Under the pieces are notes generated by a model that made no database searches, had not been told where the DNA came from, and worked only from the letters and a program-made list of their open reading frames with translations. Shown piece after piece: positions 33,428 to 47,915 of a stretch of 64,000 bases of DNA. A program made the translations under genes and the position numbers. Origin of the DNA: Haladaptatus sp. ZSTT2. Its GTDB lineage: Archaea; Halobacteriota; Halobacteria; Halobacteriales; Halococcaceae. Positions within the stretch are counted from its first letter, which is position 1. Every line of letters begins with the position of its first letter. Where the stretch lies: assembly GCF_037081775.1 (NCBI RefSeq), contig NZ_JBAMHQ010000001.1, positions 1,860,001-1,924,000 on the forward strand, in the 5' to 3' direction.

Positions 33428-33670
33428 TCACTCAATGGCGCGTTCTGTATCGTCCGTCTCCCCACCAACGCGAATCCGCTCGTCCCAGTCCTCGAACATG
33501 CCGTAGTCGGTCATCGCTTTCATCCCCGCGAGCGCCGCAGAGAGTTTGATGCCGACGAGCGGCACGTCAGCCACCGAGAGTACGACATCTGCCTGCACGA
33601 CGGCTCCTTCGCGGAGAATCACGTCGACAAAATCCACGAACGCGTCTTCCTCACCTTTGCTTGGCTTCAT
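33428..33670 (-). CDS. gvpM: Gas vesicle protein GvpM
   Basis: 80 residues with the GvpA-like core FVDFVDVILREGAVVQADVV and LVGIKLSAALAGMKAM, matching haloarchaeal GvpM. It is a minor, essential assembly protein thought to nucleate or cap the vesicle with GvpJ. The Met at 33670 is chosen; the frame open upstream lies within gvpL. The start overlaps the gvpL stop (ATGA). Confidence 0.9.
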   Translation of the reverse strand: MKPSKGEEDAFVDFVDVILREGAVVQADVVLSVADVPLVGIKLSAALAGMKAMTDYGMFEDWDERIRVGGETDDTERAIE

Positions 33671-34446
33671 TCGAGAACGCCCTCTGCGACGTGGGTGTAC
33701 GGCGGCCACGGCCCGGTGTATCTGACTTCAACGCCCTCCTCTGTGGCCACCTCGTCCAGTTTGTCGCCTATCGCTTCGGCACCCGCCTCGGTGGCGAGCG
33801 CGGAGATTCGCGCGACGACTTCGCCGTCCTCTCTCCCTCCGCCCAGTTTCACCGACTGCTCACCGAGCGCTTTGACGGCTTTCGCGTGTGGCTCCACCCG
33901 CGATTCGAGCGCGTCCTGCTCTGCGGCCTTCCGCTCGCGGGCGAGTTCGGACACGCGTTGTTCGTACTGCTTTTCGACGAGAAATCGCTTTCCGGGTGGG
34001 GCATCTTCGAGGATTGCTTCGAGTTCGTTGAGGCGGTAGTCGGTCTCATTTTTGGCCGGGCGGTCGTCGGCCCAGACGACTTCGACCCGATACTCCCAGT
34101 GACCATTGAGGCGGTCGAGTTGGGTCGCAAGTTCGTCGCGCGACTCACGAAGCCACGCCCGCACTGCGTCGTCACCACCCTCGAACACGGTGTTGAAGCG
34201 AAACGGCAGCGGCGTCCCGAACGCCTCGCCAATCTCGTCTACGATGGCGAGGTGGTCGACGAGCAACCGCTGAACATCAGTCTTCTCGGTCGACTCGAAC
34301 GCCGTGTCTTGTGGCTGGACGAGCGCGCCGAGGTCACCGTCACAGACGAGGTACGCGTCGGTTCCATCGAGGCCGACCGTCCGGTAGCTCACGGGGCCGT
34401 CTGCGAGCGAGACCACACAGAACACGTAGCGGCGCTCGTCACTCAT
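33667..34446 (-). CDS. gvpL: Gas vesicle protein GvpL (GvpL/F family)
   Basis: 259 residues. The N-terminal domain YVFCVVSLADGPVSYRTV, the central PLPFRFNTVFEG and the closing VRYTGPWPPYTHV are family hallmarks shared with GvpF. GvpL is an accessory protein that interacts with the other Gvp proteins during assembly and is required for vesicle formation. It overlaps gvpK by four bases. Confidence 0.9.
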   Translation of the reverse strand: MSDERRYVFCVVSLADGPVSYRTVGLDGTDAYLVCDGDLGALVQPQDTAFESTEKTDVQRLLVDHLAIVDEIGEAFGTPLPFRFNTVFEGGDDAVRAWLRESRDELATQLDRLNGHWEYRVEVVWADDRPAKNETDYRLNELEAILEDAPPGKRFLVEKQYEQRVSELARERKAAEQDALESRVEPHAKAVKALGEQSVKLGGGREDGEVVARISALATEAGAEAIGDKLDEVATEEGVEVRYTGPWPPYTHVAEGVLE

Positions 34447-34748
34447 CTCGTTCCCCCCAGTCCGACGGCGTCGTCAGGCAGTTCGAGGGCGTGCTCGATG
34501 AGGCCGTTCAGGTCGCCGCGCAACCGGGTCACGTCGTCCTCGATTCCCTCGTCGCGTTTGAACCGCTCCAACTCGGCTTCGAGCGTGGCAAGCCGTCTCC
34601 CGAGGCGTTCGATTTCCTCATCTGAGAGCGTTTCAGACTCCATTCGGCGGATTGCTTCGCGCTCCATCACTTCGAGCAACACGTCCGCGACGGCGGCGAC
34701 GAGCGTGACGAGGCCGTTGTCCGCGCCGTCCACCTCAATCGTCGTCAT
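34443..34748 (-). CDS. gvpK: Gas vesicle protein GvpK
   Basis: 101 residues of the GvpK family: GLVTLVAAVADVLLEVMEREAIRRME followed by a coiled region (EIERLGRRLATLEAELERFK). An accessory protein essential for assembly in the haloarchaeal minimal set. The start lies 14 bases within the gvpJ end, a tight translational overlap. Confidence 0.92.
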   Translation of the reverse strand: MTTIEVDGADNGLVTLVAAVADVLLEVMEREAIRRMESETLSDEEIERLGRRLATLEAELERFKRDEGIEDDVTRLRGDLNGLIEHALELPDDAVGLGGTR

Positions 34749-35040
34749 CGGCGTCTCCTTCGGCGGTCATTGCCGTCGCGTCGATGGTGTCTGTGTCGAG
34801 TGGGGCTCGCCCGGAGGCTTCCGCCACCCGTTCCATGTCCGTGCCGCTCGGGAATTCGAGGCCGTACTGGGCGGCCGTTTCGAAGGAGGCGATGGCCGCG
34901 CGGATACGGATGTCGAGCAGTTCCGTGTCGCCGACCGACACCGCGATGTCGGCGTTGATGACGACGCCCTTGTCGAGCAGCAGCTCGACCATGTCCGCGA
35001 GGTCGCCTTGCTGGCGGGAGGGCCGGGCGCTATCCATCAT
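34735..35040 (-). CDS. gvpJ: Gas vesicle protein GvpJ
   Basis: 101 residues, GvpA-like core LADMVELLLDKGVVINADIAVSVGDTELLDIRIRAAIASFETA, with an acidic tail ending DADDDD. A minor structural component. A second in-frame Met one codon inside (35037) is an equal start candidate. Its start lies within the last bases of the upstream I-like gene. Confidence 0.92.
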   Translation of the reverse strand: MMDSARPSRQQGDLADMVELLLDKGVVINADIAVSVGDTELLDIRIRAAIASFETAAQYGLEFPSGTDMERVAEASGRAPLDTDTIDATAMTAEGDADDDD

Positions 35041-35773
35041 CTTCCTCCTCGAAGCGACTCCCGTAGATGCGCGGACGGTTCGGCGCGGTGGAGTACTTCG
35101 TTTCTTCGGGAACCGTCGAGCCGCGAAGCCCCGGCACCGTCCCGGAGTTCCGAGACGGCACCGTCGATACGGCAGTTGGACTCCGCGATGACGGCTGGCG
35201 CGAATCCGGCGTCGTCCGCTCTTTGTTCGTGTCGTGAAGTTCTTTCAGCCGCGCTCTCGCCTTCAATAACTCGTCGCGGAACTCGTCGACGGCCTCGCTC
35301 GCCTTCTTCTGGACCGCAAGTTGGCTGAACTGGTCTAAATCTTCGGGCTCGTCTACGGCTTCGTCGCTCACATCGGGCGTCTCCACGTCCCGCTCGTCGT
35401 CGCCTTTGAGCGCCGCGACCATTCGGCGGGCGTGTCGCCACGCACCGCGCACGTCCATCGCGTTTTTCGCCGCCTCGGCATCGACGGCCTCCGGCACGTC
35501 GTCTATGTCGAGCACGTCCGCCACGTCGCGTTCGGTAATCACGTCGTTCAGGTCGGCATCGTCGAGGGCGTCAGGTACCTCGGAGATGGTGATGGCCTGT
35601 GCCAATTGGGTCACGTTGATTTCATCGACCATCGAGGTTGCTTCGTCTCCTGCTTCTTGGAGGCGTTCTACCTCCTCGGGTGCGTGGTCTGAAGCCGTGT
35701 CTGTGACCGTCTCTGCGACGTCTTCTGCGGTCTCTTTTGCCGTGTCGAGTGTGTCACCAAGGTCAGTGTCCAT
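35030..35773 (-). CDS. Gas vesicle cluster protein, GvpI-like C-terminus with acidic N-terminal domain
   Basis: 247 residues in the position normally held by gvpH and gvpI. The N-terminal ~125 residues are acidic and helical (INVTQLAQAITISEVPDALDD, repeated D-D/I-x-D units) with no Hsp20 signature as in GvpH. The last ~60 residues are basic, Ser/Pro/Thr-rich, with TVPSRNSGTVPGLRGS and NRPRIYGSRF, which I associate with GvpI. It may be a fusion or a lineage-specific replacement of GvpH/GvpI. Overlaps with gvpG and gvpJ put it in the operon. Confidence 0.6.
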   Translation of the reverse strand: MDTDLGDTLDTAKETAEDVAETVTDTASDHAPEEVERLQEAGDEATSMVDEINVTQLAQAITISEVPDALDDADLNDVITERDVADVLDIDDVPEAVDAEAAKNAMDVRGAWRHARRMVAALKGDDERDVETPDVSDEAVDEPEDLDQFSQLAVQKKASEAVDEFRDELLKARARLKELHDTNKERTTPDSRQPSSRSPTAVSTVPSRNSGTVPGLRGSTVPEETKYSTAPNRPRIYGSRFEEEDDG

Positions 35774-36024
35774 TATTGTTTCACCTCCACGCGCCCGCCG
35801 AGGCGTTCGTGGGCGCGTTTTGCCCGCTCCAGTTCGGCTTCGAGTTCTGCTTTTCTCGCTTCGTACGCCGCATGCGAGAGGTCGCCGAGTTCGTAGAGCA
35901 ACCGCGCTTCTTTGAGCTGGTCGCGGATGGCGTCGGTGTCGTACAGCTCGGTGAGCGCGACGGTGTGGATGGCGTTGAGGATGGAGACCAGCGGACGAAC
36001 CAGGAGGTCATCGACCAGTAACAT
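35773..36024 (-). CDS. gvpG: Gas vesicle protein GvpG
   Basis: 83 residues with the GvpG start VDDLLVRPLVSILNAIHTVAL, then a helical, charged region (LYDTDAIRDQLKEARLLYELG) and a basic Lys/Arg-rich end. An assembly accessory protein. It overlaps gvpF by 17 bases; the next gene starts on its stop codon. Confidence 0.88.
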   Translation of the reverse strand: MLLVDDLLVRPLVSILNAIHTVALTELYDTDAIRDQLKEARLLYELGDLSHAAYEARKAELEAELERAKRAHERLGGRVEVKQ

Positions 36025-36652
36025 TGCTCCGTTCCCCGCTGATTTCGATGTCTACGAAGTTGTACGGTGCCCACGGCCCCGTGTACTGCACCCGCAGGTC
36101 GGGGTACTCGGCTTCGAGTTCCTCAACCACGGCGTCGAAGGCGTCGCGGTTCTCGCGGGCGACGAGATATGACTTGTTCAACACGAGGAGGTCGCTGAAG
36201 TGGTCGCCGTCTGCGGCCTGTTCTGCCACGGGGGCAAGCCGCGGGGTCACGTCATCGTGGACGGCCTCGGTGTCCACGTCTGCGTCCTGTTTTGCCACGA
36301 GTTTCACTCCGAGTTCCACCTTCCCCTCGGTGTCACGCAGCGCCTTGGTGAAGGCTCTGCGCCCGCCACGTAGGATGTTCTTCACCCCGCGTGCGGAGTC
36401 GAACACCATTCCAAACCGCATCGGAACGACCGTCGTGCCGCCGTCTAGCTGCATTACGGCCTGCAACACGTCGTCGTGTGCCCGAGCGTTCTCGTCGGTT
36501 TCTTCCGGCTCTTCGGTGTCGATGTCGGAGACGATCGCTGAGAACGGTGGATAGTCGACCGTGTAGATATCGGTCGCCCCCTCTACCCCGGCAACGGCAA
36601 CGTCTACCGTCGTCTTTCCGACGACGCCGTAGACGTAGTAATTGCTCGTCAT
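36008..36652 (-). CDS. gvpF: Gas vesicle protein GvpF (GvpL/F family)
   Basis: 214 residues from the Met at 36652 (NYYVYGVVG is the usual GvpF N-terminus; an in-frame Met at 36712 adds 20 unrelated residues). PFSAIVSDIDTEE and the C-terminal VQYTGPWAPYNFVDI complete the two-domain family structure. GvpF contacts GvpA during assembly and is required. It is the first gene of the leftward operon; gvpA lies divergently 150 bases away. Confidence 0.9.
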   Translation of the reverse strand: MTSNYYVYGVVGKTTVDVAVAGVEGATDIYTVDYPPFSAIVSDIDTEEPEETDENARAHDDVLQAVMQLDGGTTVVPMRFGMVFDSARGVKNILRGGRRAFTKALRDTEGKVELGVKLVAKQDADVDTEAVHDDVTPRLAPVAEQAADGDHFSDLLVLNKSYLVARENRDAFDAVVEELEAEYPDLRVQYTGPWAPYNFVDIEISGERSNVTGR

Positions 36653-36745
36653 CGTCTCTGTGCCCGCCGCTGGTCGGTATGACGGTTCATTGTTCTCATA
36701 GCCATTTGCCACACCGCCTTCTAATTGTGACGGCCAAACAGTCTG

Positions 36746-36755
36746 GAAATTTTAC
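36746..36755 (+). promoter_or_regulatory. Candidate gvpA promoter (TATA-like)
   Basis: GAAATTTTAC is the most A/T-rich element of the gvpF-gvpA intergenic region. It sits about 50 bases before the gvpA ATG, which would give a 20-30 base leader as known for halobacterial gvpA. No gvpD or gvpE regulator is in the window, so control must come from elsewhere. Confidence 0.4.
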
Positions 36756-36803
36756 CCGTCGGCCTCAACGAATAAAGGGGTCCACGAGAGACGGACACAG
36801 GCA

Positions 36804-37058
36804 ATGGCAGGTTCCCAACCAGACACCTCCAGTCTCGCAGACGTACTCGACCGCATCCTCGACAAGGGCGTCGTCATCGACGTGTTCGCCCGCCTCTCGG
36901 TCGTCGGGATCGAACTGCTCACCGTCGAAGCACGCGTCGTCGCCGCCTCCGTGGACACGTTCCTCAAGTACGCAGCCGAGATGAGCAGGCTAGAGCAAGT
37001 AACCCAATCCGGTGACCTGGAGGACATCCAGGAGTTCGAACTCACGGCAACGAACTAA
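36804..37058 (+). CDS. gvpA: Major gas vesicle structural protein GvpA
   Basis: 84 residues closely following the highly conserved GvpA pattern: [20 protein letters not shown], then [20 protein letters not shown] and [10 protein letters not shown]. GvpA forms the ribs of the gas vesicle wall. The usual halobacterial protein is ~76 residues; the extra residues are in the C-terminal tail ([11 protein letters not shown]). It is followed directly by gvpO. Confidence 0.95.
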
Positions 37059-37472
37059 ATGAGCACCGACGTAGACCAATGTCGCGCGCTCACCGAAGAC
37101 GGCGCGCGTTGTGACCGGGAGGCGACCGACGGGTCGTTTTGCTACCAGCACGACGAAGACGACCCGACCATCGACGAGGACGCAGCAGACGACCCGTCGC
37201 TCGATGGCGACCTGTCCATCCTCGACGTTCGCACGCGCGTCGCGGAGACGGCAACCGACCTCATCGGTCACGACTTAGACGGCGTCTCTGAGGTCATGGC
37301 CACTGGCGACGACGGGTGGCGAGCGGTCGTCGAAGTCGTCGAACGCCACTCGGTTCCGGACACCCAGGACATCCTCGGCCAGTACGAGGTGCTCCTCAGC
37401 GAGCGCGGCGAGATAGAAGGCTACAGCCGTCTCGGGCGGTTCCGGCGGTCTGATACTGCCGTCCAGAGCTGA
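37059..37472 (+). CDS. gvpO: Gas vesicle protein GvpO with N-terminal Cys/His motif
   Basis: 137 residues. The C-terminal ~85 match GvpO: EVMATGDDGWRAVVEVVERHSVPDTQDILGQYEV and GYSRLGRFRR. The N-terminal 30 residues hold a compact zinc-site-like set, Cys-x5-G-x2-Cys...Cys-x2-His (CRALTEDGARC, FCYQHDE), not part of the GvpO core as I remember it. GvpO is needed for vesicle formation and stabilises gvp mRNA in halobacteria. It begins right after the gvpA stop; no gvpN or gvpC lies between. Confidence 0.88.
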   Translation: MSTDVDQCRALTEDGARCDREATDGSFCYQHDEDDPTIDEDAADDPSLDGDLSILDVRTRVAETATDLIGHDLDGVSEVMATGDDGWRAVVEVVERHSVPDTQDILGQYEVLLSERGEIEGYSRLGRFRRSDTAVQS

Positions 37473-37493: not shown

Positions 37494-38747
37494 TCACACC
37501 GGCGTTCTGAGCGCCCAGCTGTCAGTTTCCGGGTCGAGGCGGTTCGGTTCTTTCCCCCGTTCTGCGAGCAGGCCAACGTGATAGAGCATCGCCTTCAACT
37601 GGAACACGGTTGGCGAGTGATACACGTTGCCGTCCATGAGTGCCTCCCTCACTAACTCACCGTCCTCGCTGAGCACGGCAGACCGAACCGAAGCCGTTCC
37701 CCGAATGAACAACTCAACCGTGAACGTTGGGTGTTGTTCGTAGAGCGTCGTCACGAGGTCGATGAGCGTTGGCTCGGGCGTGTTCCATTCGTGGAGCTGC
37801 TGGAGTTCCGTCACAAGCAGTTGGGTCGCCGGGTAGGCAAACACGACGCGCCGGGCGAGTTGCCCCCAGCGCGGGGCGTCGGTGTAAAAGCGCGACTGGG
37901 TTCCTTTCCAGTGTTCGAACCGTTCGAGGGCCGCTTCCACGCTGCCACAGGTCTCCTGTGCAAATCGCACCACTTCGTGACCGAGTGGTGTCAGGGTCTC
38001 TCGACCGAGGTCGTCGTCTACAAGGCCAAGAAATAGGGCTCCCCGTCGGGCACTGTTCGTCTCACGGACGACGTACCGCGAGAGCGTTTGCTCGACCTCG
38101 TGTTGGTTCTCCCCGAGCGCAAAAGCAAGCGCATAGCCGAGGTAGTTTTTCGGGTGATTCAACCCGAAGGACTTGTCGGCGACGCCCTGTGCGCTTGCCT
38201 GAAATCGGATTGCGTCCGTCGCTTCAGAGCCACGGTGACCAACGAGCCGTGGGACGACAGTCGGTTCGACTGCGCCGTCCGGGGAGACGCTCAAAATCCC
38301 CACGTTCAACTCGCGTGCGAGCGTCGCATCGGTTTGCGTGATGGCGTCTGCCGGTGCGGCCAGATACGCCGCGTTCGCCTCCCCGAGGCGGTTGTACGCC
38401 TGCACGATGCCGCGCTCTGTGTCCACTAGTCCGTTGCTTGTGTGGCCTTTTGCCTCGATGGCGACGAGCGGCGGGTCGTCACCGAAGCGCTCGACAGCGA
38501 GCAGTTCGGGTTCGAGCGTTCTGACGCCGACTAAGTCCGGATAGCCACTACCAATCTTGACGTGGTTGAACGGCGCGAGTTCTTCGACGATGTCTGCTCG
38601 AATGCGCTCGTCTGCGAGCCACGTTCCCGTCGAAAACTGTGTGTCAGTGACAGCATACACTTGCGAATCTTCAGACTTTGGAAACAGCCGTCGCTTCGTG
38701 TGTGCGAGCACGTAGGGTTCAGAGAGCGACCCCGAAGCGCTAGCCAT
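37494..38747 (-). CDS. PD-(D/E)XK nuclease-like hypothetical protein
   Basis: 417 residues, not assigned to a named family. Near the N-terminus, Tyr69-Pro-Asp71 (GSGYPDLVGV) followed by Glu98-Ala-Lys100 (LVAIEAKG) fits the PD-(D/E)XK restriction-endonuclease-like core, with a helical remainder (EEVEQTLSRYVV-type). The C-terminal half is helical and without motifs. It may be a nuclease in a defence or repair role, or a catalytically dead relative. It lies convergent with gvpO (21 bases) and has no obvious partner methylase. Confidence 0.55.
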   Translation of the reverse strand: MASASGSLSEPYVLAHTKRRLFPKSEDSQVYAVTDTQFSTGTWLADERIRADIVEELAPFNHVKIGSGYPDLVGVRTLEPELLAVERFGDDPPLVAIEAKGHTSNGLVDTERGIVQAYNRLGEANAAYLAAPADAITQTDATLARELNVGILSVSPDGAVEPTVVPRLVGHRGSEATDAIRFQASAQGVADKSFGLNHPKNYLGYALAFALGENQHEVEQTLSRYVVRETNSARRGALFLGLVDDDLGRETLTPLGHEVVRFAQETCGSVEAALERFEHWKGTQSRFYTDAPRWGQLARRVVFAYPATQLLVTELQQLHEWNTPEPTLIDLVTTLYEQHPTFTVELFIRGTASVRSAVLSEDGELVREALMDGNVYHSPTVFQLKAMLYHVGLLAERGKEPNRLDPETDSWALRTPV

Positions 38748-39416: not shown

Positions 39417-41180
39417 ATGGGACACTGGGGGGACAGTGGACAGCCGAGAGGCTCACCACACAACAACTGGGGGACAGCCACGCGAGCACAGGCCGAGACG
39501 ATTGGGGTCGTCCTGTTGCTCTTTTTCGTCATGACGACTGTCGCACTCACCGCGTCGGTGGGTTCGGCCGGCCTCGAAATGGCATCGAACACCGCAGAGA
39601 CGAGCAAAGCAGAGGTCACACTCATGCAACTCGACAACCGCATGGAACAGGTTGCACTTGGCGACACGAAACTCCAGACGATGGCGCTCGGACTCGACGG
39701 CAAAGAGGGAACGATGCACGTCCGCGAGGGTGCCGGGTCAATCCGCGTCGAGGTTTTCCCGTACGAATCGAACGAGGTCGAGACGGTGCTCGTAAACGAG
39801 CCGCTTGGCGACGTCGTGTATCGCAATGGTAACGTCACGCTCGCCGCACAAGGCGGTGGGCTCTGGCGCGTCGATGGGGACGGGCAAGCGCGGATGATCT
39901 CTGCACCACGATTCCACTACAAAGACGACACGTTGACGCTTCCTATCATCGTCACCAGCGGACAGACGACCCTCGACACTGAAGCCGTCATCACCGAGCA
40001 GTCGGTGCACTCTCAATCGGTGTATCACTCACAAGATGAGGGTGCTATCCTGAAACCCGGCTCTCGTGTCCGAGTGACCATCCAGAGCGACTACTACGTC
40101 GCGTGGGGCGCGTATTTCGAACGCGAGTTCAACGGAACGGTCACGTACGACTCGGCGGCCGAGACTGCCTCGATCGAGTTCGCTGCGCCACTCCAGAACC
40201 CGGGGGTGCTAGGTGGATTGTTTTCGACCTCACCGGACGACGTCATTATTAAGGCCAGCTCTGGGACGGACTTCACCGACAGCTACGATTCGCGGGTTGG
40301 CCCCTACGATGCCGCGACGGCTGGGTCGAATGGGCACGTCATCGGGGCAGGAGACGTAGAAATCACCACAGGACAGGTCAACATCAACGGAGACCTCATC
40401 GCAGGGGGTTCGCTAAACGCCAACTCGAACAGCATGTACATCTCTGGGAACGTGACCTACAGCTCGCTGGTCACGCAAAAAGGGACGATTGCTGGCTGGA
40501 TGAAACAACAGCCAGTCTACTTCGAGGACGTTGCTGCGATCGACCGTGTTATCGATGCAAAAGTGCGTGCCATCGCGCCGACCAACGATAATGCAAATGT
40601 CTCAGCACTCTCGGGTACCAACGTAGACGCCAGTGGCGGCCCCGTCACTCTCTCGGCTGGCGACTACATCGTCGATGACCTCACCTTAGACGGCTCCGAC
40701 GAGGTGCTCGTCCTCGACCTGAGCCAGGGTGACGTCAACCTCGTCGTGAACAACAGCTTGACGGTCAGCAACGGCGCGGAACTCCGTGTTATCAACTCTG
40801 AAAACGGGACGGCTCGCGTCTGGTTCAACGGGACTGCACTTACTTTCAACTACGCGACCGTTACCGTAGCGGGTGACAGGGCGAACTCGCTGTGGATTTA
40901 CGCCCCTGCTGACGCCGATATGCTTCTCTACGACGGCCAGTTCACGGGCGTCATCTACGCGCCAAACGGCGGTAACGCCGGTGTTGGCTCCGTGACGATA
41001 GAACACTTCGCGGACATCAAGGGCGCAATCGTCGCCGGTCAGACGGAGTTTCTCACCGGATCGTCTATCCACTTCGATGAAGCGTTGCTCCCGACCGACC
41101 CGATTCCACCGACGGGCCACTCACCAATCCGGTACATCCACCTCTCGGTGAACGAAATCGAACTCACCGAATCCGACTGA
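39417..41180 (+). CDS. DUF7289-type surface protein with archaeal pilin-like N-terminus
   Basis: 587 residues. RAQAETIGVVLLLFFVMTTVALTAS around residues 23-47 is the class III (type IV pilin) signal plus hydrophobic helix recognised by archaeal prepilin peptidase, preceded by a polar, non-homologous 20-residue tail. A long extracellular beta-rich body follows. From about residue 300 to 345 it turns into a bactofilin/right-handed beta-helix-like ladder (GDVEITTGQVNINGDLIAGG). The product is probably an exported, pilus- or envelope-associated protein. Function is unknown. Confidence 0.72.
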   Translation: MGHWGDSGQPRGSPHNNWGTATRAQAETIGVVLLLFFVMTTVALTASVGSAGLEMASNTAETSKAEVTLMQLDNRMEQVALGDTKLQTMALGLDGKEGTMHVREGAGSIRVEVFPYESNEVETVLVNEPLGDVVYRNGNVTLAAQGGGLWRVDGDGQARMISAPRFHYKDDTLTLPIIVTSGQTTLDTEAVITEQSVHSQSVYHSQDEGAILKPGSRVRVTIQSDYYVAWGAYFEREFNGTVTYDSAAETASIEFAAPLQNPGVLGGLFSTSPDDVIIKASSGTDFTDSYDSRVGPYDAATAGSNGHVIGAGDVEITTGQVNINGDLIAGGSLNANSNSMYISGNVTYSSLVTQKGTIAGWMKQQPVYFEDVAAIDRVIDAKVRAIAPTNDNANVSALSGTNVDASGGPVTLSAGDYIVDDLTLDGSDEVLVLDLSQGDVNLVVNNSLTVSNGAELRVINSENGTARVWFNGTALTFNYATVTVAGDRANSLWIYAPADADMLLYDGQFTGVIYAPNGGNAGVGSVTIEHFADIKGAIVAGQTEFLTGSSIHFDEALLPTDPIPPTGHSPIRYIHLSVNEIELTESD

Positions 41181-41242: not shown

Positions 41243-42211
41243 ATGCACCTTGGGAGTATGCTGCCAACCCACTGTACCGGCGAGTATCGCGTCCCGGCGG
41301 AGACGATTCGCTGGTGGGCGCGCGAAGCGACCGACGCGGGCTTTCACGGGCTCTGGGTACTCGACCACGTCGTCAAACCAGATACCTACCACACGAGCCT
41401 GCTCGACCCACTGATTGCGCTGTCACACGCCGCCGCAGTCGCGCCATCTGCGAATCTAGGCACGTCCATTCTCATCGCGCCGCTTCGGCACACCGCGAAC
41501 ATCGCCTCACAAGCCCTCTCGATTCAGCACCTCACGGAGGGGCAGGTCACGCTCGGGCTTGGAGCCGGATACGTGCCAAAGGAGTTCGAAGTGACGGGGG
41601 TTCCGCGCACCGAACGCGGCCCGCGTGTGAGCGAAGCCGTGTCCGTGTTGAACCGGCTGTTCGAGGGCGAAGCCTCCTTCTCCGGGCGCTTTCACGAGTT
41701 CGAGAATGTGCGCATCGACCCCGTGCTCGACACCCCACCAAAGCTCCTCGCTGGTGGCTCGTCGATTGTTGACGAAGACGGTAACCGTCGCATTCCACGC
41801 CCCATTCTCGACCGGATTCTCGACTGTGGGGGCTGGCTTGCCCGGCCAACGCAGCCTGAGAAACTCGAAGCCGAGTGGGAGATCATTTCCGAGTACGCCC
41901 GCGAACAGGGTGTCGACCCCGACTCCCTGCGCCGGGTGATGCTCCAGTACATCCACGTCGTGGACACCGACGACCGCGAAGAAGCCCACCGCGAACAGAA
42001 ACCCGCGTTCGAGGACTATCTCGCGGGCGACCGGGATTTCGACTACGCAAAACGCTACTGCCTGACCGGCACGCCTGCGGACATCCACGCCGACCTCGAT
42101 GCGGTCGAAGCCATGGGCTTTGACGAAGTCATTCTCGGGCAGGTCGTCCACACGCCAGCCGACCTCGAACAGCAGTTCGACTTACTGGTCGAGACCTTCC
42201 TCGACGCCTGA
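41243..42211 (+). CDS. F420-dependent LLM-class (luciferase-like) oxidoreductase
   Basis: 322 residues with the LLM TIM-barrel pattern: HLGSMLPTHCTGEY, EATDAGFHGLWVLDHV, then LGTSILIAPLRHTANIASQALSIQHLTEGQVTLGLGAG, and the binding loop LLAGGSS. These enzymes use F420 or FMN; F420 is favoured because the organism encodes CofE. The substrate is unknown. The 3' end overlaps the convergent membrane-regulator gene by 30 bases. Confidence 0.85.
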   Translation: MHLGSMLPTHCTGEYRVPAETIRWWAREATDAGFHGLWVLDHVVKPDTYHTSLLDPLIALSHAAAVAPSANLGTSILIAPLRHTANIASQALSIQHLTEGQVTLGLGAGYVPKEFEVTGVPRTERGPRVSEAVSVLNRLFEGEASFSGRFHEFENVRIDPVLDTPPKLLAGGSSIVDEDGNRRIPRPILDRILDCGGWLARPTQPEKLEAEWEIISEYAREQGVDPDSLRRVMLQYIHVVDTDDREEAHREQKPAFEDYLAGDRDFDYAKRYCLTGTPADIHADLDAVEAMGFDEVILGQVVHTPADLEQQFDLLVETFLDA

Positions 42212-43837
42212 GCCGTCGGCCATGATGCGCGCGGAGGGTGCTGGCTCTGGTTCGGGGCGCAGGGCGGCGTTCGCCTCGGGCGAGAGCCGGGTGACGACCG
42301 CTCGGCCCTCGCGTTCGCGCACCACGATGTCGTCGGCTTCGAGCCGTTGGAGGTGGTGGGTCACCGTACTCGGGTCGCGTCCAAGGTCGGCGGCGAGTGC
42401 AGACACCGAGGACGGGCCGAGCCGCGAGAGCGCGTCTAAGACGGCCGCCGTCGCCTCGTCGTTGAGCGCCGCGGCGAGTTCGTGACCCTCCGTGTGGGCA
42501 GCATAGAACCGGCGCTTGCCCCGTATTTTCGCGCCCGAAATCAGCTGCTCGTCTTCGAGCACCCGGAGGTGGTGGCGGGCCGTCGAAAGCGGCACGTCGG
42601 CGCGGTCGGCCACCGCAGAGAGGTAGATGCCGGGCGACTCGCTGATGGCCGAATAGACGGCGTCGCGCCCCTCGTGTTCGAGCGGGTCTGAGTCGTCAAA
42701 GCGGCTGTAGCGAAACGGCGCAATGATGCGCGTCACGCGCTCTACGCCCGCATGCAGCCTGCTGGTGATGGCAGAGTGTGACGCCTGCGTTGCAACGTGG
42801 CTGAAACTCGACCAGTCGATGGCAGGCCCATAGCGCACCGCGCCCGCGGTGACGAGCGCGCCCACGCCGAGCGCGATGCCGGGTTCCTCAGGTACGGGTT
42901 CCGGCAACGAACCCGTCGAAAACGGCGGGAGGAGTGCTGTGGCGTTGTCGGCTGCTGCGGTTGTCTCCGCCGACTCCGCCACGTTCCGTTCTTCGCTGGA
43001 TGCGGAACTTGCCACCGCCACAACGTCGGCGGATTCGCTCGAACTCGCCTCCACAGACGCCGTGGTGTCGTTCGTTTGCGTGGGTGATTCGTCCTCGGTC
43101 GTGTCCTCCGTCACACCGTCCGTCTCCTCGACAACCGCCTCGGTCGTCGTGGTCGTATCGGTGGCGAGGGTTTCGGTGACCGTTTTCGTCGGGTTGCTTG
43201 CGACGGTGTCAGTCGTGACCGCCGTTTCCGTGACCGTCGTCTCAGTGGTCGCGGTCAGGTCGGTGGTCGATGCCGTTTCCACCGAGACGGTTGCGGTGGT
43301 GGTCGACTCAACGGTTTCCACAACCGTGTCGGCTGGGTCAGTCGAACCGTCGGTGAGGGTGTCTGTGGTCGCGGTTAACTCGCTCGTCGCGTCTCCCGTG
43401 TCAACGCTCTCGGTGGTCGTTCCGTCGCTCACGTCTTCGACGACATTGGTCGCCGTGTCCTCGACGGTCGATTCGACGCCATCGACGGTTTCGGTCGGCG
43501 TGGGCGTCGGAGCCGACACCTCGTCGGTTAGCGTGTCCGTCGAAGTGGTCGCGGAAGTCGTCGTCTCGGTGGTCGAATCAGTCGAATCGAGCGTCGTCGA
43601 AAGCGTTGCTGTCGAGGTCAGCGTTTCCGTGTTTGCTTCAAGCGTCGTGGTCGGTGTGTCAGTCAGCGTCTCCGTGCTCGCCTCAAGCGTCGTATTCGTG
43701 GTGTCAGTCGTGTTCGTTGTCCCGGAAAGTGGGTCGTCGGGGAGCGCGGTGACGGCCATCGGTGAGAGAACGAGCGCGACCGCTACCAAAATCGTTCCAA
43801 GTACCCACACGCGGACACGGTCGTCAGTCGCTTTCAT
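42182..43837 (-). CDS. Membrane-spanning regulator: Thr-rich ectodomain plus two winged-helix domains
   Basis: 551 residues from the Met at 43837. Order: a short basic N-terminus, a hydrophobic helix (11-31), a ~270-residue Thr/Ser/Glu-rich stretch with repeated units (EASTETLTDT, TETLTSTATL), a second helix (EPGIALGVGALVTAGAVRYG, about 318-337), and a basic stretch. Two ArsR/MarR-like winged helices follow: DAVYSAISESPGIYLSAVADRA with STARHHLRVLEDEQLI, and AAVLDALSRLGPSSVSALAAD with STVTHHLQRLEADDIV. The DNA-binding part would be cytoplasmic and the Thr-rich part outside. A one-component membrane transcription factor is inferred. Confidence 0.75.
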   Translation of the reverse strand: MKATDDRVRVWVLGTILVAVALVLSPMAVTALPDDPLSGTTNTTDTTNTTLEASTETLTDTPTTTLEANTETLTSTATLSTTLDSTDSTTETTTSATTSTDTLTDEVSAPTPTPTETVDGVESTVEDTATNVVEDVSDGTTTESVDTGDATSELTATTDTLTDGSTDPADTVVETVESTTTATVSVETASTTDLTATTETTVTETAVTTDTVASNPTKTVTETLATDTTTTTEAVVEETDGVTEDTTEDESPTQTNDTTASVEASSSESADVVAVASSASSEERNVAESAETTAAADNATALLPPFSTGSLPEPVPEEPGIALGVGALVTAGAVRYGPAIDWSSFSHVATQASHSAITSRLHAGVERVTRIIAPFRYSRFDDSDPLEHEGRDAVYSAISESPGIYLSAVADRADVPLSTARHHLRVLEDEQLISGAKIRGKRRFYAAHTEGHELAAALNDEATAAVLDALSRLGPSSVSALAADLGRDPSTVTHHLQRLEADDIVVREREGRAVVTRLSPEANAALRPEPEPAPSARIMADGSGVEEGLDQ

Positions 43838-43943
43838 GCTAGGGCATACCTTCACAACCTGTCGATAGTCTCGATATTAGGCACATTCGCATATACGTTA
43901 TGGCCCGGCCAGCACGGCTCGCTGCGCGAAAAAGGAGAACTGC

Positions 43944-46163
43944 TCAGTTCGTATCGACACCGCCGACGGTGTTGCTGTCCGTGCCGGTCAGCGTCACCGT
44001 GCGCACCTCGTCGAACGTCGCGGTGGCCGCTGCGGGGCCGAACTCGTAGCTGCCCGTCGAGTCGGGGGCTTCGAGGAAGTACGTCCGAGTGACTGGGTCA
44101 TCGCCGTCTTCGACCGCGCCGACGGGTTCGGTGAACTCAACGTAGCGCGTGCCGTTTTCGGTGTACACCTCGGCGTCGTCGCCACCGACGAGCGTCCAGT
44201 CGAACGGAATCGTATCGCGGACGAACGCAGATCCGGTCGAGCTCTCGACGGTTATCGTCACCTGATTCGTCTGCCCGGCGGTGAACACGGAGCCGTCGTC
44301 GGCCCGCGAGCCAGTTGCCTCAAACACCGTGTCGGTGGCCGTCTCGTCGAGGCTCGTGAGGTCTACGTCGTTGAACTTCGCCGGGTGTGGCTTGTTCTCC
44401 TCTGCGAGCGTGACCGCGCCGACGGCATCCACGAACCCGGCACCGATGTTCGCCGGGTTGTAGCCGCCGCGTACGTCCTTCGCACTCGCCTCCATGATGA
44501 GCAACACGTCGAGGGGGTCTGGGTACTCACCGTGGGTCTGGTTGTAGGCGTCCACGACGAGCGTGGCGACCCCGGCGGTGACGGGACAGGACATACTCGT
44601 TCCCGAGATTTTGCCGTACCAGATTTCTGCGTCCTGTTCGTTCGGGTCGCTCGTGCTCGCGTAGGCTTGGAGTGGGTCGTCCGGCGACAGCGTGCTCATG
44701 ACGAGGTTGCCGTTCGCGCCGACGCCGTTGCGGTAGATGCCGAACGGGCCTTCCGGCTGCTGGCCCGCAGGCGGGGCTTCGCGCGCGGTGAGGTCGATTG
44801 TCCACGAGGCGGTGAGATTCGCGTACGGGACGATTTCGAAGTAGTACGTCTCGCCGCCGGTCACGGCTCCCGCGACGTGTTCGGGGTTGTCGAGGCTCGC
44901 GCCGCTTGCAACGACGGGGCCGTCTTTTGCGCCTTGATGGAGGTAGATGTCTAAATCTTGGCCCGGCGGCGTCCACGACACGTCGGCTTCGACGTAGCCC
45001 GCCTTCTCGGGGGCCGTCCACTCCTGATACGCCGAGTCACCGACGCCCGCGTCGCTCGAACCGGGGCCGACGGTTCCGGTAAAGGAGGTTTCAGAGAGCA
45101 CCGGCTGGTCTGCGAGGTTCGCGTCGAAGTAGTCGGTCAGATTCGACAGCGCGAGTTCGCGGTCGTACTGTGCGCCCTCGCCGCCGCCGTCGTAGTCGGC
45201 GAATCGGCCACGAGAGGAGAAATCGGTGACCGTCTTGTCGTCGAACGTTGCGGCGACGCCGAGGACGTGCGGGGCTTTCGCGTAGTTGTTGAGCGTGTTC
45301 TCGCCGGGGCCGTCGTTGCCCGCAGAGAAAATGGGGAGGATACCGCGCTGGAACGCCTCCCACGTGGCGACGTTGAGCGCGTCGCTCGGCACGAAGTCGT
45401 CGGGGCTTGAACTGCCATACGAGTTCGAGACGATTTGCACGTCAGTTTTCCCTTGTTCCACCCGCGAGAGCAGGTGGTCGTAGGCTCCTACGGCTTGGAC
45501 GATGAGGAGGGTCACCCCCGCCGAGTAGACGGTGAGTTTCGCGTCGGGGGCCATCCCGCGGTACTTGCCGTCGCTCGCGGTGCCGTCCCCAGCCACCGAG
45601 CCACTGGTGTGGGTGCCGTGGCCGTTGTCGTCGGTGTCTGCGGGACCGGCATCGACCCACATCGTGCCCGCATCGAGTGGGTCGGTGTAGCGCCAGTTGT
45701 GCTGGAGGTTCGTTTGGTGGTCGGGGTGGTCGCCGTCGATGCCCGAGTCGATGACCACCGAATGGGCGGTTTCGCCCGTGTAAAACAGGTTCTCTTGGAC
45801 GATGTCCGCGCCCGTCGCCTCCCGCGAATCGTCGTTGTGGTAGTCGAGTTGTGTGTTCGCTTGGACGTATTTCACGGCGGGAATCTCCGCGAGCGTCGCA
45901 ATCTGGTCGCCCGTGAGCTTCGTATAGGCAATCGGCAACACTTCGAAGGCGTAGTGGCCCGCCGGGAGGTCGAACTGGGTGATGAGGTCGACGTTCGCGG
46001 AGTCGTCGAACACGACCAGCACTTCCTGTAATTCGGTGCTGTCGGTGTCGAGACTGGTGTCGATGGTTGGAGTCTGTGCAAAGCCGCTCCCCGTGAACGG
46101 GACGAGAGTGGCTGCGCCCGCCGCGCCTGTTGCTTTTAGGAGTGTGCGTCTGCTGAAGCGCAT
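43944..46163 (-). CDS. Tat-exported subtilase (S8, halolysin-like) with internal domain insertion
   Basis: 739 residues. Tat signal SRRTLLKATG (start at 46163, not the upstream 46253), a propeptide of the inhibitor-I9 type (ELQEVLVVFDDSANVDLI...), then the S8 catalytic set: Asp139 (VVIDSGIDG), His182 (DNGHGTHTSG), Asn283 (FSAGNDGPG) and Ser523 (GTSMSCPVTAG). About 360-465 is a beta-sandwich insert with DLDIYLHQGA that resembles a PPC (pre-peptidase C-terminal) domain, absent from the neighbouring paralogue. A C-terminal ~130-residue beta domain follows. Confidence 0.88.
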   Translation of the reverse strand: MRFSRRTLLKATGAAGAATLVPFTGSGFAQTPTIDTSLDTDSTELQEVLVVFDDSANVDLITQFDLPAGHYAFEVLPIAYTKLTGDQIATLAEIPAVKYVQANTQLDYHNDDSREATGADIVQENLFYTGETAHSVVIDSGIDGDHPDHQTNLQHNWRYTDPLDAGTMWVDAGPADTDDNGHGTHTSGSVAGDGTASDGKYRGMAPDAKLTVYSAGVTLLIVQAVGAYDHLLSRVEQGKTDVQIVSNSYGSSSPDDFVPSDALNVATWEAFQRGILPIFSAGNDGPGENTLNNYAKAPHVLGVAATFDDKTVTDFSSRGRFADYDGGGEGAQYDRELALSNLTDYFDANLADQPVLSETSFTGTVGPGSSDAGVGDSAYQEWTAPEKAGYVEADVSWTPPGQDLDIYLHQGAKDGPVVASGASLDNPEHVAGAVTGGETYYFEIVPYANLTASWTIDLTAREAPPAGQQPEGPFGIYRNGVGANGNLVMSTLSPDDPLQAYASTSDPNEQDAEIWYGKISGTSMSCPVTAGVATLVVDAYNQTHGEYPDPLDVLLIMEASAKDVRGGYNPANIGAGFVDAVGAVTLAEENKPHPAKFNDVDLTSLDETATDTVFEATGSRADDGSVFTAGQTNQVTITVESSTGSAFVRDTIPFDWTLVGGDDAEVYTENGTRYVEFTEPVGAVEDGDDPVTRTYFLEAPDSTGSYEFGPAAATATFDEVRTVTLTGTDSNTVGGVDTN

Positions 46164-46183
46164 GGCACTAGGCAACAATTGTC

Positions 46184-46192
46184 TATAAAATA
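46184..46192 (-). promoter_or_regulatory. TATA box of the first subtilase
   Basis: The minus-strand TATTTTATA is centred 25 bases from the ATG at 46163, giving a leaderless transcript and supporting that start. Confidence 0.65.
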
Positions 46193-46216
46193 CTCTTCTG
46201 GCCAAATCGTCCAAAC

Positions 46217-46239
46217 GTCTGAACTTCGGGCGTTCAGAC
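46217..46239. promoter_or_regulatory. Inverted repeat upstream of subtilase (operator candidate)
   Basis: GTCTGAAC-TTCGGGC-GTTCAGAC, perfect 8-base arms separated by 7 bases, lies 25-50 bases upstream of the TATA box of the minus-strand subtilase and 54 bases before the small DUF1059-like gene. A regulator site or a hairpin in the small gene's leader are both possible. Confidence 0.55.
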
Positions 46240-46292
46240 CTGTTTGCTAACAATTAACACACTGCTTTCTCCTCAGCGCGCGTATCTCTCGC

Positions 46293-46451: not shown

Positions 46452-47885
46452 TTATTCGCTCACGATGCTGACCTCGCTGAAGGCAGCGAAGTCGCCGTTT
46501 GCCGCCCGCGAGACGGCCGCTTCCGCATCAACGAAGCCTGCGCCGATGTTCGCCGGAGTGTACGTTTCTCGGGCTTCCGTGGCGGTTGCCTCAATGGTGT
46601 TCAACACGTCGAGTGGTTCCGGGTACGACCCCGTCGCGTCGTAGTAGGCGTCTACCATGAGCGTGGCAATCCCGGCGGTGACGGGACACGACATACTCGT
46701 CCCGCTGAGCGGGCCGTAGTAGAGGTCGTTTCCGTCACCCGTCGCGTTGAGTGGGTCGAGCGGCGAGAGCGTGCTCACGACGGCGTTGCCGGGTGCGCCG
46801 ACGCCGTTGCGATAGAGGCCGACCGGGCCGCTCACGGACTCGCCTGCGTGATACGCACTCAAGTTCTCGAAGGCGGTCTGGCGGTCGTAGTTCGTCTCGC
46901 CCGAGTACGAGGAGGCGCGACCGCGCGAGGAGAAGTCGGTGACCGCCTTCTGGTCGTCGGTGGCGGCCACGCTGAGGACGTGCGGGGCTTTCGCGTAGTC
47001 GTTGAGCGTGTTGGTCGCCGGGCCGGAGTTCCCCGCTGAAAAGACGGGGAGAATCCCGGCTTGGAACGCTTCCCACGTCGCCACGTTGAGCGCGGCATCG
47101 GGTTCGTAGTCGTCTGCGCTCGCGCTCCCATACGAATTCGAGACGATGTGGGCGTCGGTGTTTCCGGCGAGGCGCTCAGCGATGAGGTGGTCCATCGCAG
47201 AAACAGCGTGAATGATGAGGAGCGTGAGTCCCGCAGAGTAAACGGTGAGGTCGGCGTTCGGGGCCATCCCCCGGTTCTCGGCGGTGTTCGTCCCGTCGCC
47301 CGCAATCGACCCGCTGGTGTGGGTGCCGTGGCCGTTGTCGTCGGTGTCGATGTTGCCAACGTCCGTCCAGAAGGTGGTCTCGCTCGTCCCGAGCGGGTTG
47401 AGGTAGCGATAGTTGTGCTGGAGGTTCACTTGGTGGTCAGGATGCAGCCCCGAAATTCCCGAGTCGATGACGGCGGTGTGGACGTTTTCGCCGGTGTAGC
47501 CGAGGTCTGACTGAACGGTCGAAACGCCGGTCACCTCGCGGGCGTCTGCGTTGTGGTAATTGAGTTCTTTGTTGGCTTCGACGCGCCGGACGGCGTCCCA
47601 CGACGCGACTTCCTCGATTTGCGACCCGGTCAGGCGGGTGTAGCCGATTGGGAGGACGTTCAGGCCCACGAAGCCGTCTACGAGGCTGAGTCCTGAGAGC
47701 AACGAGATGTCGTCGGTGGAGTCGAAGACAACGAGCACTTCCTGTGGGTCTTCGCTTGTGAGATTGAGAACGTCGTCAACGAGTGGCAACGACGCACCCG
47801 CGCTCCCGGTTGCGAGCGCCGTGCCGACGCTTGCCGCGCCGATGCCTTTGAGAAACGTCCGTCGTGGCGTGTTCTGACGTGCCAT
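46452..47885 (-). CDS. Tat-exported subtilase (S8, halolysin-like), paralogue
   Basis: 477 residues. Tat signal PRRTFLKGIGAASVG, I9-type propeptide (PQEVLVVFDSTDDISLL), catalytic Asp141 (AVIDSGISG), His186 (DNGHGTHTSGS), Asn286 (FSAGNSGPA) and Ser397 (GTSMSCPVTAG). The catalytic domains align closely with those of the other subtilase, but this one lacks the internal insert and the C-terminal beta domain, so it is close to the minimal halolysin length. Start at 47885 is set by the leaderless promoter. Confidence 0.9.
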   Translation of the reverse strand: MARQNTPRRTFLKGIGAASVGTALATGSAGASLPLVDDVLNLTSEDPQEVLVVFDSTDDISLLSGLSLVDGFVGLNVLPIGYTRLTGSQIEEVASWDAVRRVEANKELNYHNADAREVTGVSTVQSDLGYTGENVHTAVIDSGISGLHPDHQVNLQHNYRYLNPLGTSETTFWTDVGNIDTDDNGHGTHTSGSIAGDGTNTAENRGMAPNADLTVYSAGLTLLIIHAVSAMDHLIAERLAGNTDAHIVSNSYGSASADDYEPDAALNVATWEAFQAGILPVFSAGNSGPATNTLNDYAKAPHVLSVAATDDQKAVTDFSSRGRASSYSGETNYDRQTAFENLSAYHAGESVSGPVGLYRNGVGAPGNAVVSTLSPLDPLNATGDGNDLYYGPLSGTSMSCPVTAGIATLMVDAYYDATGSYPEPLDVLNTIEATATEARETYTPANIGAGFVDAEAAVSRAANGDFAAFSEVSIVSE

Positions 47886-47908
47886 AGCAACTGCACGAGA
47901 ATACCACA

Positions 47909-47915
47909 TTAATAT
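47909..47915 (-). promoter_or_regulatory. TATA box of the second subtilase
   Basis: ATATTAA on the minus strand is centred 27 bases from the ATG at 47885, giving a leaderless transcript; the frame open to 47909 is thereby excluded as start. Confidence 0.6.

Follow-up and report, generated by a model that had tools for sequence, protein, structure and literature searches.

Regulators of the ToxR/CadC kind are type II membrane proteins whose DNA-binding domain is N-terminal and cytoplasmic. Transmembrane transcription regulators (TTRs) of this type were surveyed by Demey et al. (2023; PMC10269533), who found them to be common in archaea. ArnR and ArnR1 from Sulfolobus acidocaldarius are membrane-bound HTH regulators of surface structures, in which an N-terminal HTH is followed by a HAMP-like and sensing domain and by two C-terminal membrane helices (PMC6396743). 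In haloarchaea, HVO_0163 has been labelled ArsR (PMC10294847), the regulatory proteins for halolysin expression have been reported as undetermined (PMC6085418), and most other gas-vesicle clusters lack gvpDE, the control of their expression being unclear (PMC4390858).

Results

The putative regulator gene and its reading frame

The gene lies at 42182–43837 on the minus strand of the window, i.e. the stretch of 64,000 nucleotides from Haladaptatus sp. ZSTT2 that was analysed, and is predicted to encode a membrane-tethered regulator with tandem winged-helix domains. It is a single frame of 551 residues, running from an ATG at 43837 to a stop at 42182; an alternative GTG upstream, at 43855, would yield 557 aa. 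Its 3′ end overlaps by 30 bases the convergent gene for a luciferase-like (PF00296) oxidoreductase (41243–42211). A plus-strand ORF across the linker (42849–43868) was discarded as a low-complexity antisense reading.

Full-length orthologues are present in two congeners, G017 and G016, with 89% and 71% identity, respectively, over the part that begins with the membrane segment and ends with the second winged helix; the linker has diverged in sequence between congeners and has kept its composition. The whole domain order stands in one frame in both orthologues and in about 79 long homologues, distant members included. This rules out a frame artefact as well as the fusion of two separate genes that the first-pass annotation had named as a caveat.

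Two winged-helix domains

The first winged-helix domain (residues 385–446; 42500–42685, minus strand) is of the HTH_HVO_0163_N type according to Pfam and the AlphaFold2 (AF2) model. PF24266 matches residues 389–453 with 41 bits against a gathering cut-off of 31, and all 35 aligned family members match it at E≤0.001. The second (residues 452–526; 42260–42484, minus strand) is ArsR/MarR-like as judged by Pfam, AF2 and fold matches: the HTH_20, HTH_5 and MarR models match residues 460–510 above the Pfam cut-offs, and NF033788 scores 70.1 bits against a cut-off of 55, as for the ArsR-type winged-helix fold. Both domains were modelled at pLDDT above 90. The two winged-helix domains of the first-pass annotation are confirmed. 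Superimposed singly, they fit CzrA/SmtB at 1.3–1.8 Å (about 70 residues for the second). No cysteine occurs among the 551 residues, so that the cysteine-based metal site of an ArsR/SmtB metalloregulator is missing. The recognition-helix residues are conserved among family members. From the fold, which is established by homology, we infer that the winged-helix pair binds DNA.

N-terminal helix, linker and putative membrane segment

The N-terminal helix (residues 1–31; 43745–43837, minus strand; Kyte-Doolittle value of the core 2.31) resembles a Sec signal peptide. It ends in AVTA|LPDD, with cleavage predicted after AVTA. An [AV]xA motif at the end of the h-region is found in 72 of the 79 long members as compared with 23% of control 16-mers, and for this reason we read the first helix as a Sec signal peptide that is probably cleaved off, rather than as a membrane span. 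If so, one span instead of two probably remains in the mature protein.

The linker that follows (residues 32–319; 42881–43744, minus strand), which would be extracytoplasmic, is a low-complexity stretch rich in Thr, Ser, Asp and Glu. Over about 284–288 residues it contains 32% Thr, 11% Ser, 11% Glu and 9.5% Asp (~20% acidic), is nearly devoid of aromatics and carries four N-x-S/T sequons. Linkers of the same kind occur family-wide, with the composition being retained and the residue-by-residue sequence not conserved. The first-pass annotation had seen two transmembrane helices bracketing ~270 Thr/Ser/Glu-rich residues; the linker stands, and the first of the helices is better given up.

The remaining membrane segment, GIALGVGALVTAGAVRYGP (residues 320–338; 42824–42880, minus strand), is Gly/Ala-rich and weakly hydrophobic in the window protein, its best 19-residue Kyte-Doolittle mean being 1.26. 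It is not helical in the AF2 model; in a Natrialbaceae homologue it is modelled as a helix at low confidence. The case for it comes from its consistent placement across the family: in 70 of 79 members, the most hydrophobic stretch of the linker lies 45–120 aa ahead of the RYSRYDDSDPLE motif, where uniform placement would give 20.5. On the outer (preceding) side of the segment the long members have a mean net charge of −2.9. Beyond it, the family alignment reveals a conserved juxtamembrane motif, IIAPFRYSRFDDSDPLEH (residues 371–388; 42674–42727, minus strand). The protein is thus likely to have a type I topology with a single span, the tail being outside and the DNA-binding domains inside.

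Family spread and architecture

Family members were collected with a profile of the C-terminal part (E≤1e-12), which matched 151 of 394 haloarchaeal genomes; neighbourhoods and architectures were counted in 120 retrieved loci with 121 members. About 79 of these, found across Halobacteria, are long forms with the full domain order, so that the architecture which the first-pass annotation had proposed to survey proves to be conserved. Measured so as to take in the membrane segment and the juxtamembrane stretch, their linker has a median of 304 and a maximum of 1,328 residues.

Two other groups lack the membrane segment. About 15 short forms (239–317 aa by longest frame), among them L122, L123, L128, L129, L131, L133, L103, L125, L126, L136, L138, L150 and L155, have kept the signal peptide; by topology rules their DNA-binding part would be exported, and type I topology does not explain them. 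The second group consists of a few soluble paralogues, namely P0004 in G016 and L143, L144, L146 and L152 in genus g43. P0004 (L047:5872–6432) is an additional protein of 186 aa encoded between two subtilase genes, some 3.5 kb upstream of the gene for the long form. Homologues without membrane helices, which the first-pass annotation had held to be damaging to its reading, hence do exist, alongside long members which keep the segment in its place.

Outside the haloarchaea, the methanogen versions, including those of Methanosarcina, have 250–300 aa and combine a short loop with a membrane span. At many of the methanogen loci L279–L298, the gene immediately upstream of that for the tandem winged-helix membrane protein encodes a small secreted protein (about 140–230 aa). 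A Thermoplasmatota protein (L241:4168–6498) combines a signal peptide, a beta-helix and Ig ectodomain, a membrane segment and tandem winged helices, and a Hydrothermarchaeota relative carries several spans. That relatives in Methanosarcina and Thermoplasmatota share the order, with ectodomains of other kinds, speaks for a membrane-anchored regulator. Given the simpler relatives in methanogens and Thermoplasmatota, the window protein belongs, by sequence comparison, to a broad class of archaeal one-component membrane regulators, in which it stands for the haloarchaeal branch with long tails, and is not a new kind. The widespread haloarchaeal family is apparently undescribed so far; no description was met in a few queries of the open-access literature, which is weak evidence for absence.

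Subtilase genes upstream of the regulator

Two genes for subtilases (Peptidase_S8) with Tat-type N-termini lie upstream of the regulator on the same strand. Subtilase 1 (43944–46253, minus strand) adjoins it directly and belongs to a subfamily that is regulator-linked in other genomes as well; subtilase 2 (46452–47909, minus strand) follows. A subtilase gene is found ≤600 bp upstream of the family gene at 15 of 120 loci, representing 7 genera and 5 families, and within 600 bp downstream at none of the 120. By chance, about 0.29 upstream subtilases are expected from 9.3 subtilases per genome, the mean of 30 sampled genomes in which subtilase-linked genomes are over-represented and by which the expectation is raised. 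This recurrence strongly supports the subtilases as partners, as the first-pass annotation had supposed. In a scan of the whole order, homologues of subtilase 1 (E≤1e-80) were detected in 69 genomes, 14 of which have one at no more than about 12 kb from a family gene; this, too, speaks for the link. Against it, most family loci, the other 105, have no subtilase directly upstream.

The soluble paralogues P0004, L146 and L152 also adjoin subtilases, so linkage goes with the DNA-binding part. This suggests that the subtilase is a regulated gene rather than just an input that cleaves the stalk. Inspection by eye of aligned upstream regions revealed no convincing conserved operator. At a relative from Methanosarcina KYL-1, the neighbouring gene encodes 396 aa with motifs that, judged by eye, resemble those of serine proteases; its product has no Pfam match and was rejected as a protease link; none similar was evident at the other methanogen loci among those listed.

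Gas-vesicle genes and other neighbours

A gas-vesicle cluster occupies 33428–37472, with gvpM, L, K, J, H-like and F on the minus and gvpA and O on the plus strand. A family gene near gvpD-less gas-vesicle clusters in the window genus and in Natrialbaceae is a new observation, and the cluster is possibly a second target there. That the control of gvp clusters without gvpD/gvpE is in fact the chief role, the subtilase link being secondary, is conceivable and rather doubtful. Such clusters occur near the family gene at 30 of 120 loci, and the 13 genera concerned are the window genus and members of Natrialbaceae (the latter assignment being inferred), with a frequent gene order, HTH – CHY zinc finger – gvpO – gvpA – gvpF, that is similar in the two families; among 64 genomes listed for both, 34 have cluster and family gene within 12 kb. 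GvpD (PF07088) was found neither in the window genome nor, one weak distant match excepted, in the gvp-linked genomes; in four genomes that have no linked regulator it is encoded next to gvpO. Against this, the linkage is confined to one genus and Natrialbaceae and may be inherited synteny, the gvp genes are usually 2–7 kb from the regulator and not divergent from it, and two other genera of the window family (g2, g3) possess gvpO and no match to the regulator family. PF07088 is also not among the regulator's own Pfam matches, i.e. the protein has no GvpD P-loop domain.

Adjoining gvpO, at 37494–38747, is the gene for a 417-aa protein without a Pfam match at 1e-5, which holds the same place in both congeners. 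A DUF7289/DUF7305 surface protein is encoded at 39417–41180, past the oxidoreductase gene. This pilin-like protein, put forward in the first-pass annotation as a target or effector, was dismissed as a partner since it is at the same place in neither congener. Elsewhere, the usual neighbours are dCTP deaminase (families f4 and f6) or mutS (family f7), an adjacency that may be plain synteny.

Discussion

In our view the window protein is probably a type I membrane-tethered one-component regulator of the adjacent subtilase. The Sec signal peptide would export the N-terminus, leaving the Thr/Ser/acid-rich tail outside the membrane as a disordered stalk, which by its composition is probably glycosylated. 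The single weak helix would serve as the anchor, and the tandem winged-helix domains, presumably cytoplasmic, would bind DNA. The recurrent upstream adjacency points to the promoter region of the secreted subtilase gene, which is often divergent and common to both genes, as the most likely target and makes autoregulation probable; the nearby gvpD-less gas-vesicle cluster would be the second candidate target in the window genus and Natrialbaceae. What is least certain is the input, supposedly the condition of the tail or of the envelope, which might alter how the DNA-binding part dimerises or is tethered. The membrane one-component regulator with a Thr-rich, envelope-facing tail of the first-pass annotation is thereby retained in outline on the strength of the conserved family architecture, with the first helix reassigned as a probable signal peptide and with soluble paralogues beside it.

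A release gated by proteolysis appears unlikely. Here a protease, possibly the neighbouring subtilase, would trim the stalk, upon which an intramembrane protease would free a soluble winged-helix part. The long protease-accessible tail, the weak Gly/Ala-rich segment and the recurrent subtilase neighbours are all consistent with this, as are the soluble paralogues, which show that the DNA-binding part can stand alone. However, neither a cleavage site nor an intramembrane protease was found linked, and the same paralogues (P0004, L146, L152) adjoin subtilases without possessing a stalk, so the link needs no cleavage. More improbable still is a shed-to-signal receptor, in which the subtilase or other surface proteases would cut the glycosylated stalk and thereby free or re-tether the winged helices to control subtilase and gas-vesicle genes; if true, it would be an archaeal parallel to the eukaryotic membrane-bound transcription factors that are activated by proteolysis. 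Least probable is an exported DNA-binding protein with a non-spanning segment and the winged helices outside, e.g. on extracellular DNA, which would suit those short paralogues that have a signal peptide and lack the segment, as well as the weakness of the segment in the window protein and its non-helical AF2 model, but not the segment position and negative outer flank retained by the long forms, the spans seen clearly in the relatives from methanogens and Thermoplasmatota or the recognition-helix residues, which remain conserved.

Read as a membrane-tethered regulator, the protein is a named candidate for two questions, i.e. the regulators of halolysin and the control of gas-vesicle clusters without gvpDE. 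With one conserved regulator linked to both, both can be tested in a genetically tractable Natrinema strain.

Among known systems, GvpE/GvpD may share a target class with the window regulator; the proteins are unrelated and the linked clusters lack gvpD. HVO_0163-type proteins (PF24266) share the first winged helix, which is above the cut-off; the Pfam model is limited to an HTH and includes neither a membrane nor a stalk part. The ArsR/SmtB metalloregulators resemble the protein in the fold of the second winged helix, whereas the window protein is free of cysteine, has two fused domains and is predicted to be membrane-anchored. As in the one-component TTRs, DNA-binding domains (two winged-helix domains above Pfam cut-offs) stand in one polypeptide with what is here a putative anchor; unlike that of ToxR/CadC, they form a C-terminal tandem, preceded by a signal peptide and a long, disordered tail. 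Among the characterised archaeal regulators in the literature compared, ArnR/ArnR1 come closest. They too are HTH proteins, membrane-bound as the window protein is predicted to be, but they have no stalk and the domain order is opposite: their HTH is N-terminal and their two membrane helices lie at the C-terminus. The window protein, with this order reversed, would add to the archaeal membrane regulators a design in which the tail points outward and the DNA-binding domains come last.
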